From assembly GCA_002700365.1 (NCBI GenBank), contig PADB01000010.1, positions 1-64,000 on the forward strand: a stretch of 64,000 bases of DNA. Reading direction: 5' to 3'. The position numbers and the translations under genes are program-made. This DNA comes from Kordiimonas sp. GTDB taxonomy: Bacteria; Pseudomonadota; Alphaproteobacteria; Sphingomonadales; Emcibacteraceae. The notes beneath the pieces are model-generated. The model did no database searches and had not been told where the DNA came from. It was given only the letters and a program-made list of their open reading frames with translations. Shown here one piece after another: positions 1 to 3,912 of this stretch; the first letter of the stretch is position 1, and every line of letters begins with the position of its first letter.

Positions 1-54
1 CAGAGGAACTCAACTACGGAGTCGATCTATCAACCATCTGAGGGTGGTATCAGA

Positions 55-80
55 TTGATGGGGTGAAGGTGCCCCATCAA
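55..80. repeat. perfect hairpin near the left edge
   Basis: Nine-base arms (TTGATGGGG at 55-63 and CCCCATCAA at 72-80) flank an 8-base loop. There is no T-run on either side, so it is not a standard intrinsic terminator. It lies just downstream of the AlpA-like gene (minus strand) and might still end that transcript or one arriving from the left. The octamer TCAACCAT occurs at both 30-37 and 77-84. No gene could be recognised in bases 1-110. Confidence 0.5.
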
Positions 81-114
81 CCATTAAATCCGTATACCCA
101 TAAAAGAAAGAGGC

Positions 115-309
115 TCAGTCCTCTTTCTTCTCATACTCCTCCAAATCTTCAATGTGCCACAGCTTGTTTCGTGTATTTCGGTTGATACGAGGTTGCGGCA
201 AGCTGCCATCTTTTATTCTTCGCCAGAGCGTCGTATAGCTAATGTGGTAACGAGCCATCACTTCGTAAGATGTTAGAAAAGGGGTTACCTGGTGCGCTAC
301 TGCTGTCAT
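115..309 (-). CDS. AlpA/Xis-like helix-turn-helix protein
   Basis: A 64-residue basic protein with the layout of AlpA-type regulators and small excisionases of the winged-helix MerR-like fold: 'LTSYEVMARYHIS' (about 13-25), 'TTLWRRIKDGSLPQP' (26-40), then a strand 'KLWHIEDLEEYE' (49-60). Such proteins bind direct repeats near attachment sites and act either as directionality factors or as activators of integrase genes. I chose the ATG at 309 because AGGAG (317-321, read on the minus strand) lies 7 bases upstream; a TTG start at 330 gives 71 residues but puts the ribosome site inside the gene. It is about 580 bp from the broken prfC end, which supports a role in the mobility or control of the element. 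No integrase is visible here; it would lie to the left. Family assignment is by motif, function is inference. Confidence 0.75.
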   Translation of the reverse strand: MTAVAHQVTPFLTSYEVMARYHISYTTLWRRIKDGSLPQPRINRNTRNKLWHIEDLEEYEKKED

Positions 310-429: not shown

Positions 430-588
430 AGGTACTTTTCAGCTCAAACCTATGAATAACAAGGGCTACAAGGCGGTTTGTGTCATGAATTGCAATCAAC
501 ATGCCTAACGAGAAAAATTTGTACACACTGTTTGTACACTCGCAACGATGACACATCAAAAAACACAATAACGAACCCTTTAAATTCA
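430..588. repeat. diverged direct repeat, copy A
   Basis: This copy shares an ordered set of blocks with copy B (668-849): AGGTACTTT at the start, CAAACC, a GGCTACA/GGCCTACA block, TTTGTGTCAT-GAATT, a pair of TTTGTACAC boxes, and TTTAAATTCA at the end. Between the blocks the copies differ by substitutions and small insertions (159 versus 182 bp). The repeat lies wholly on the element side of the prfC junction. It has no convincing coding content. Confidence 0.65.
518..539. promoter_or_regulatory. paired TTTGTACAC boxes, pair 1
   Basis: TTTGTACAC occurs at 518-526 and again at 531-539, 13 bp apart and in the same orientation, so the boxes lie on roughly the same DNA face with a small offset. 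The core TGTACA is itself palindromic. The pattern resembles arm-type integrase sites or excisionase sites, or an operator for the nearby AlpA-like protein. Binding is inferred, not shown. Confidence 0.5.
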
Positions 589-667
589 TAAGCTTACAAA
601 CATAAAACTAGAGATGATCGCATATATTCCGCTTTTGTAATGTCGAAACCAAAGTACCAAAAGCAAG

Positions 668-849
668 AGGTACTTTCTTCATCAAACCCAGTAACCACAA
701 GGCCTACAGCCAGATTTGTGTCATAGAATTTTCGCCAAAGGCCTCTAAAACGGAATTTGTACTCAAGTTTGTACACACTTTCCGAGGTTACGCTTGAACA
801 TCATTGAAAAGTAAAGAAACGAGAAAAAGACAAAAAGCCTTTAAATTCA
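668..849. repeat. diverged direct repeat, copy B
   Basis: Second copy of the block set described for 430-588, ending with TTTAAATTCA at 840-849. On the minus strand a GTG within its second box opens a 60-codon frame (594-776). The matching GTG frame in copy A reads a related short stretch (HDTNRLVALVI against YDTNLAVGLVV) and stops after about 33 codons. Either the repeat once carried a tiny gene or the DNA is conserved for another reason. Confidence 0.6.
756..776. promoter_or_regulatory. paired TTTGTACAC boxes, pair 2
   Basis: TTTGTACTC (756-764) and TTTGTACAC (768-776) are spaced 12 bp apart in the same orientation, 238 bp from pair 1 and at the same relative place in repeat copy B. This conserved placement within otherwise diverged copies is the main reason to think the boxes matter. 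Confidence 0.5.
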
Positions 850-890: not shown

Positions 891-977
891 TTAAGCGTTG
901 AAAGGCTGGGCGGCATCAGGGTGCGAAATAATGGCAAAGGTCCGACGGCGGTCGATCTCTTGCTGAAGTGAGGACAT
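891..977 (-). pseudogene. prfC: prfC 5' remnant cut by an insertion
   Basis: On the minus strand from the ATG at 977 the frame reads MSSLQQEID, then RRRTFAIISHPDA, then AQPFNA and a stop: 28 codons. RRTFAIISHPDAGKTT is the near-invariant start of the GTPase domain of peptide chain release factor 3, which recycles RF1/RF2 (E. coli RF3 has the same words). The match ends inside the G1 loop, at about base 911, so the remaining roughly 500 residues are missing. A GTG at 1031 would add 18 residues in frame. The chromosome lies to the right of this point and foreign DNA to the left. SXT/R391 elements insert at the 5' end of prfC and bring a replacement 5' end, so an intact gene may exist at the other end of the element, outside this window. 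Deletion or another insertion type are alternatives. Confidence 0.85.
905..940. other. probable attachment-site junction (attL/attR) in prfC
   Basis: The chromosomal prfC reading is intact down to GATGCC (912-917, read on minus) and is lost by base 910, where GGT-AAA-ACC codons would be expected. The crossover core therefore most likely lies within the codons for FAIISHPDA, about 912-938. The other copy of the core must be at the far end of the element, left of the window. Confidence 0.55.
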
Positions 978-1037: not shown

Positions 1038-1059
1038 TTTGTACAGATTTTTTATACAC
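1038..1059. promoter_or_regulatory. weaker TTTGTACA box pair in the prfC leader
   Basis: TTTGTACAG (1038-1046) and TTTATACAC (1051-1059) are 13 bp apart, the same spacing as pair 1, but this pair is on the chromosomal side of the junction and has two mismatches. It could be chance in T-rich leader DNA, or a host sequence that the element copies mimic. Confidence 0.3.
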
Positions 1060-2585: not shown

Positions 2586-3809
2586 TTAGCCCTTGTGATG
2601 TTCTAATATGAAATCCTTGACGATAGGCCGGACCATATTGCGCCACTTACTTCCATTAAATATACCGTAGTGGCCCGCACCTTTTTGCTCATAATGCTTT
2701 TTCATATTATCCGGCAAATTGTCACATAGGCGGTGCGCAGCTTTCGTCTGCCCAATACCGGAAATGTCATCCAGTTCGCCTTCTATCGTCAATAACGCAG
2801 TATGATTTATTTTTGATGGATTAACATGTCGTCCTCTGGACATCATACGGCGACGCGGCAGCAAATGATCCTGGAAGACGGTTTTGATAGTTTGTAGATA
2901 AAATTCAGCCGGCAAGTCCATCACAGACAGATATTCTTCATAGAAGTCACGGGTCTTTTCCGCACCATCACCATCACCTTCCACAAGGTGTGTGAACATT
3001 TTCCAATGTGCTTCGATATGGTCTTCCAAATTCATATTCATAAACGCTGAAAGCTGCAAAAACCCCGGATAAACCCGTCGCATGAAACCCAGGTTAGGCA
3101 GCGGCACACGATGAATCGTATGATGTTCAAACCAGTCCATCGTACGGTCTTTACTCAGCTCATTGACCGCGGTCGGGCTTTCACGTGTATCTACCGGCCC
3201 CCCCATTAAGGTCATAGATGCAGGCACACATTCATTATTTTCCGCGCTCATGATCGACACAGCCGCCATCACTGGCACAGAAGGCTGACATACAGCCATA
3301 ACATGTACATTAGGCCCCAGCTCTTCCAGGAATTCGATCAGATAATCAATATAGTCATCCAGATCAAAACTGCCCATATAAAGAGGCACATCACGCGCAT
3401 CTTTCCAATCAGTTACATACACATCATGGTCCGGCATCAAAGCTTCGATCGTGCCACGTAACAGGGTCGCGTAATGCCCTGACATAGGGGCGACCACCAA
3501 TAACGTCGGGTCCTGGCGTTCCGTATCACGGGAAAAGTGCTTTAATTCACAAAACGGCTTATCAAAAACGACTTCTTCCGTAATAGCCACCGGCTGCCCG
3601 TCAATTATTGTTTCTTCATAACCAAATTTCGGCTTTCCGTAACGACGGGTCAGGTGTTCAAAAACATCACAGGCAGCGGCAACTTCCTTTGCCCCCGGTA
3701 GATAGGCCATAGGGCTACGTGGATCTTTGAACAAACGATGCCCAAAATCCGCCATATAGCGGGCGGGAGCGAACATCGTGTGCTGCATTTCATAGATATG
3801 ATAAAGCAT
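2586..3809 (-). CDS. phaZ: intracellular polyhydroxybutyrate depolymerase PhaZ
   Basis: A 407-residue alpha/beta-hydrolase of the intracellular PHB depolymerase family, which breaks down stored PHB granules in the cytoplasm to 3-hydroxybutyrate units. The nucleophile elbow is VCQPSVP with Cys174 in place of serine, as in Ralstonia PhaZ1. An oxyanion-hole strand 'VVAPMSGHYATLLR' lies at 105-118 and the likely catalytic His in 'GAGHYGIFNG' near the C-terminus. I start at the ATG at 3809 (MLYHIYE), which has AAGGGCAAAG upstream; the frame is open for 20 more codons, but those overlap the regulatory gap. Divergent from bdhA, whose product oxidises the 3-hydroxybutyrate released. Confidence 0.93.
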   Translation of the reverse strand: MLYHIYEMQHTMFAPARYMADFGHRLFKDPRSPMAYLPGAKEVAAACDVFEHLTRRYGKPKFGYEETIIDGQPVAITEEVVFDKPFCELKHFSRDTERQDPTLLVVAPMSGHYATLLRGTIEALMPDHDVYVTDWKDARDVPLYMGSFDLDDYIDYLIEFLEELGPNVHVMAVCQPSVPVMAAVSIMSAENNECVPASMTLMGGPVDTRESPTAVNELSKDRTMDWFEHHTIHRVPLPNLGFMRRVYPGFLQLSAFMNMNLEDHIEAHWKMFTHLVEGDGDGAEKTRDFYEEYLSVMDLPAEFYLQTIKTVFQDHLLPRRRMMSRGRHVNPSKINHTALLTIEGELDDISGIGQTKAAHRLCDNLPDNMKKHYEQKGAGHYGIFNGSKWRNMVRPIVKDFILEHHKG

Positions 3810-3912
3810 CTTTGCCCTTAAATACCGGTGCCTGTTGACTATCAGGTCAGAAAAGTCAGTTGCGCACACATTTTGCTATTTATAAATTCGTCATAGCATC
3901 GCATAATAATTA

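Follow-up and report, generated by a model that had tools for sequence, protein, structure and literature searches.

Genetic organization at the start of the window

The window analyzed in this study (the whole stretch of 64,000 nucleotides, to which plain positions refer) opens with the end of an insertion sequence and passes through a small AlpA-like gene, two repeat blocks and an attachment junction into host DNA. The features are listed below, where the arm boxes, blocks and core are named by their predicted roles.

1..99, end of an ISL3/ISPpu12-family insertion sequence (IS), a 100% match to ISPpu12-type IS, with the terminal inverted repeat
115..309, minus strand, xis, encoding an AlpA/HTH_17-like excisionase of 64 aa that is identical to R997 xis at 64/64 aa
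430..588, plus strand, distal P-arm block, repeat copy 1, present in haplotype A only
518..526, plus strand, distal arm box 1, TTTGTACAC, from the box search and the SXT/R391 comparison
531..539, plus strand, distal arm box 2, TTTGTACAC, 13 bp from box 1
668..849, plus strand, proximal P-arm block, repeat copy 2, kept in all SXT/R391 P arms examined
756..764, plus strand, proximal arm box 1, TTTGTACTC (one mismatch), 157 bp before the core, the same variant in 59/59 P arms
768..776, plus strand, proximal arm box 2, TTTGTACAC, 145 bp before the core
891..977, minus strand, 5' end of the host prfC, MSSLQQEIDRRRTFAIISHPDA..., left stranded by the ICE that cuts the gene, from prfC comparison
913..943, attL core, the prfC 5'-end identity common to ICE and chromosome, from junction comparison
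1038..1059, plus strand, a weaker third pair with 13-bp spacing (TTTGTACAG at 1038, TTTATACAC at 1051), on the host side of the junction and outside the ICE

Positions 400-967 match DNA of Proteus mirabilis at 96% identity, with the ICE R997 among the matching sequences, and 911-966 matches prfC. The R997 annotation places a small DNA-binding gene and an integrase gene, convergently oriented, beside the same end. Based on the identity to R997, the match to prfC and the shared xis, positions 1 to about 930 are therefore assigned to an SXT/R391 ICE in prfC, of which they form the attL end, and the AlpA-like gene is the xis of this ICE. The DNA to the right of the core belongs to the host, since the prfC N-terminus there resembles those of relatives from the same family and order. 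The IS went in precisely where the 3' ends of int and xis face each other, and the contig breaks at the start of the window because this element sits there. Its 8-bp target duplication, ATAAAAGA, lies at 100-107, with a match where contig C1 of the same genome (G000) ends. Further into the window, a perfect 26-bp inverted repeat was found at 2516-2567, between a glutathione S-transferase gene and an opposite-strand gene at 2586-3869, and is likely a bidirectional terminator.

The other end of the element, attR, was located at position 638799 of contig C1, where ICE DNA is fused to a full alphaproteobacterial prfC whose closest named relatives are from Azospirillum (68%). Adjoining it is setR, a 215-aa LexA/CI-like ORF (427-1074 of the attR locus L006) found in the same place in R997. 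The ICE int lies at C1:713058-714296; apart from scattered N, almost every position that can be read agrees with R997. From attR the ICE covers about 76 kb to the end of the contig (C1:638799-714405), is interrupted by the IS, and resumes at position 100 of the window. Integration into the 5' end of prfC at both junctions, convergent int and xis, and setR beside attR are the features by which this ICE belongs to the SXT/R391 family. Single N, many of them at third codon positions, are scattered in int and three other ICE stretches (L144, L145, L146, L148). The probable cause is masking or the merging of two ICE variants during assembly, which makes the ICE sequence between the junctions somewhat uncertain.

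Box pairs in two diverged repeats

A first-pass annotation made from the window alone had proposed paired boxes at 518/531 and 756/768 inside two diverged repeats. Our box search confirmed both pairs, with the correction that the box at 756 reads TTTGTACTC and not TTTGTACAC; the pair at 1038/1051 was missing from the earlier list. A single box with at most one mismatch is no commoner than chance (11 in the 64-kb window, 11.75 expected). Three same-strand close pairs (spacing 10-25) were observed against 0.02 expected per 64 kb, all of them within 518-1059. The blocks at 430-588 and 668-849 are indeed diverged repeats, with a local alignment score of 43 against 11.6 ± 2.2 and a maximum of 23 in 2000 shuffles. 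Their alignment holds 127 identical columns out of 195, with 49 gap positions. Besides the boxes, both copies retain AGGTACTT, CAAGGxCTACA, TTTGTGTCAT and CCTTTAAATTCA, and the remainder has drifted, with indels. No credible regulatory RNA match was returned by an Rfam search of the box region, and no IHF consensus site was found in either att arm.

The same pair at the opposite arm

The first-pass annotation had suggested a search for the same boxes at the other end of the element, and there they are: the pair TTTGTACACGGATTTGTACAC occupies C1:638886/638898, 87 and 99 bp beyond the start of the core, and is the only box pair in the part of the ICE on C1. Repeated sites are present on both arms of attP at fixed positions relative to the core. 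In a comparison with L149-L163, the P' arm (L006 95-340) is about 70% homologous to the DNA upstream of the native Providencia prfC, and can also be aligned to the corresponding DNA of Marinomonas and Idiomarina, with the conserved stretch TGTTAATCGTAATTGGC..TATTTTCGC.GATCTTG. We considered that the boxes had been captured from host prfC promoters. No pair was found in the five native Providencia prfC regions of the P' scan, and native Providencia DNA carries TCTATATCCAGATTTGTATGG or a similar sequence at the place of the P' boxes while the surrounding promoter DNA is conserved. The boxes therefore belong to the ICE. From these alignments, a prfC promoter appears to have been taken up by the ICE, which then placed its putative arm sites on that DNA.

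Boxes at +87 and/or +99 were also seen to the right of the attL core in Idiomarina, in a Pseudomonadales genome and in Shewanella decolorationis (L066 7609-7944, L061, L063), which suggests relics of earlier or tandem integration. The pair at 1038/1051 of the window sits in the native prfC upstream region and may be due to chance or be a relic. It is not favored as a former P' arm, with its boxes at +125/+138 instead of +87/+99 and a native-like prfC N-terminus at that place.

Conservation of the box pairs in SXT/R391 elements

A total of 59 P arms and 31 ICE P' arms were collected from loci found through Int in 84,980 genomes and from further searches. The proximal pair is present in all 59 P arms, always as TTTGTACTCAAGTTTGTACAC, although P arms of this family closely resemble each other and the 59 cases thus do not count as 59 independent events. 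The P' pair is present in all 31 ICE P' arms. In the whole of R997 (85,368 bp) there are exactly three box pairs, two in the P arm and one in the P' arm of attP; a scan of this entire element turned up no pair at setR or at any of the other tra promoters. The integrase promoter, which the first-pass annotation had also named as a place to look, carries no boxes in R997.

The distal pair is variable. A total of 26 of the 59 P arms, 25 plus one with a degenerate box, have it as in the window at -395/-382 (haplotype A), and in nine it is replaced by a 22-bp-spaced pair at about -494/-472 (haplotype C). Haplotype B, the remaining 24, has no distal pair, so the earlier expectation that related elements keep the boxes held for the proximal and P' pairs and failed for the distal one. 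It follows that the distal pair is accessory and that not every box pair is needed, with at most the proximal and P' pairs being essential for recombination. By this comparison the distal block at 430-588 is an accessory duplicate, and we infer that its pair serves as an additional site, either redundant or modulatory. In one haplotype C ICE (L036 5670-7197), a HipA-like gene and an HTH gene were found between xis and the att arm.

The absence or alteration of the distal block in over half of the P arms might indicate that the pairs arose by chance or are functionless debris of a simple duplication. This is extremely improbable given the three pairs in attP, where chance predicts 0.02 per 64 kb, the invariance of the proximal and P' pairs, and a native homologue of the P' arm that lacks them. 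The boxes could instead be operators through which an ICE transcription factor, SetCD at Pxis or SetR, controls xis. SetCD binds upstream of xis in SXT, and both xis and int need SetCD (PMC4344509); the distal block likewise lies upstream of xis. Nevertheless, across R997 as a whole none of the further targets of SetCD or SetR has a box pair, haplotypes A and B have DNA in common between xis and about position 400 while only A has the distal pair, and the P' pair lies 5' of prfC and not of a SetCD gene. We consider the operator explanation very unlikely.

Box sequence and the arm-binding domain of the integrase

The Int protein contains an Arm-DNA-bind_3 domain (PF13356, E 1e-18) and a Phage_integrase domain, and its residues 14-90 match the solved integrase-domain chains 3ju0 and 3jtz. 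The IntSXT subgroup of tyrosine recombinases is defined by the arm-binding domain DUF4102, and the SXT integrase is grouped with prfC-targeting elements (PMC8138268). We further analyzed relatives with 33-39% identity to Int, taking them from genomes that belong to the order of G061, from plasmid records and from phages. Among 11 non-redundant relatives, a direct repeat at spacing 12 was found upstream of int with a mean best match of 8.45/9 against 5.66 ± 0.27 in shuffles, for an upstream window and a box that had been picked after seeing two examples; all other spacings gave at most 6.4. All six circular or phage relatives with intact attP (L135, L142, L164-L167) have another pair at a distance of 234-264 bp, a largely predictive result in that L135 had been seen beforehand and the remaining five came afterwards. 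In SXT, 244 bp separate the proximal from the P' pair. In the remaining relatives no second pair was found within 1 kb upstream of int, which is expected if the other arm is at the far end of an integrated element. Phage Mcat19 (L168), read as linear, has one pair only, and the two-arm pattern is thus not in every phage record.

The sequence of the boxes tracks the arm-binding domain of Int. Relatives with at least 0.48 identity in the N-domain (residues 1-95) have TGTACA boxes, and those with 0.40-0.47 have GTGTCCA, GTGTAAA or AAGTACA boxes. This bears on the possibility that the boxes are sites of Xis, the product of the adjacent AlpA-like gene, which would bend the P arm for excision. Xis proteins usually bind one att arm, xis adjoins the boxes, and the motifs CAAGGxCTACA and TTTGTGTCAT outside the boxes, common to both blocks, could be Xis sites; the Xis-like genes beside some Int relatives also encode HTH_17-like proteins, as would suit a co-binder. 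Against Xis as the protein that recognizes the boxes, the same pair recurs on the P' arm beside setR, far from xis, and the boxes follow the arm domain of Int. Moreover, the Xis-like proteins of relatives that keep TGTACA boxes have no detectable similarity to the Xis of this ICE (no phmmer match at E up to 1). We therefore regard the Xis explanation as unlikely.

Arm sites had been one of three options in the first-pass annotation, beside Xis sites and operators, and this option is favored by the pairs on both arms, by their conservation and by equivalents that track the arm domain of Int. The box pairs are very probably arm-type sites of the SXT/R391 integrase, as predicted from comparative sequence analysis.

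Discussion

In the proposed mechanism, the N-terminal arm-binding domain of Int would bind each direct-repeat pair, whose boxes are 12-13 bp apart, or about one helical turn. The P-arm contacts would be made at 756/768 and at the accessory 518/531, the P'-arm contacts at the pair 87 and 99 bp beyond the core, and the C-terminal domain would act at the prfC core at 913-943. With the arms folded over the core, an intasome could form for integration and, together with Xis, for excision. We infer this physical binding by Int and the bridging of the arms. A more tentative and rather doubtful idea is that 430-588 is a regulatory module. By occupying 518/531, upstream of Pxis, Int would either exert feedback on xis expression or keep the ICE locked in its integrated state, and haplotypes A, B and C would differ in the tightness of excision control because of their distal pairs (13-bp pair, none, 22-bp pair).

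The attP regions of SXT, R391 and R997 belong to the same family, with convergent xis and int and the prfC 5' end as target, and R997 is 96% identical over the att region. The ICE described here differs in its alphaproteobacterial host and in the ISL3-family IS between int and xis. For the IntSXT subgroup, the comparison was made on Int relatives, the phages Ayreon, 2H10, ABMM1 and SPN3UB, which likewise have 12-bp-spaced repeat pairs on both sides of attP, 234-264 bp apart. In the phages related through Int a pair lies just upstream of int, whereas the ICE has its att site on the side of xis, sometimes with a distal pair in addition. Lambda attP and the arm sites of KplE1 IntS (PMC2951348) also serve a heterobivalent integrase with separate arm and core sites, but the arm boxes there differ in sequence and number, and the KplE1 motif contains TAAA. 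No description of SXT/R391 arm sites was found in the searchable literature, and an earlier description in subscription papers is possible.

Antibiotic resistance travels with SXT/R391 ICEs in Vibrio, Proteus and other bacteria. The named loci bearing Int are gammaproteobacterial, the exceptions being one SAR324 MAG and some MAGs that are unclassified. A search of 385 alphaproteobacterial genomes found Int only in that of the window and in none of the other 384. An SXT/R391 ICE in the prfC of an alphaproteobacterium is unusual. The exact alphaproteobacterial prfC junctions at both ends argue against contamination. The box pairs provide exact candidate arm sites for the integrase of SXT/R391 ICEs, and for relatives of Int they offer a rule for finding attP, namely direct repeats 12 bp apart, in two pairs 234-264 bp apart around the core. 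An ICE with precise junctions at both ends in an alphaproteobacterium extends the natural host range beyond the Gammaproteobacteria named in the literature.
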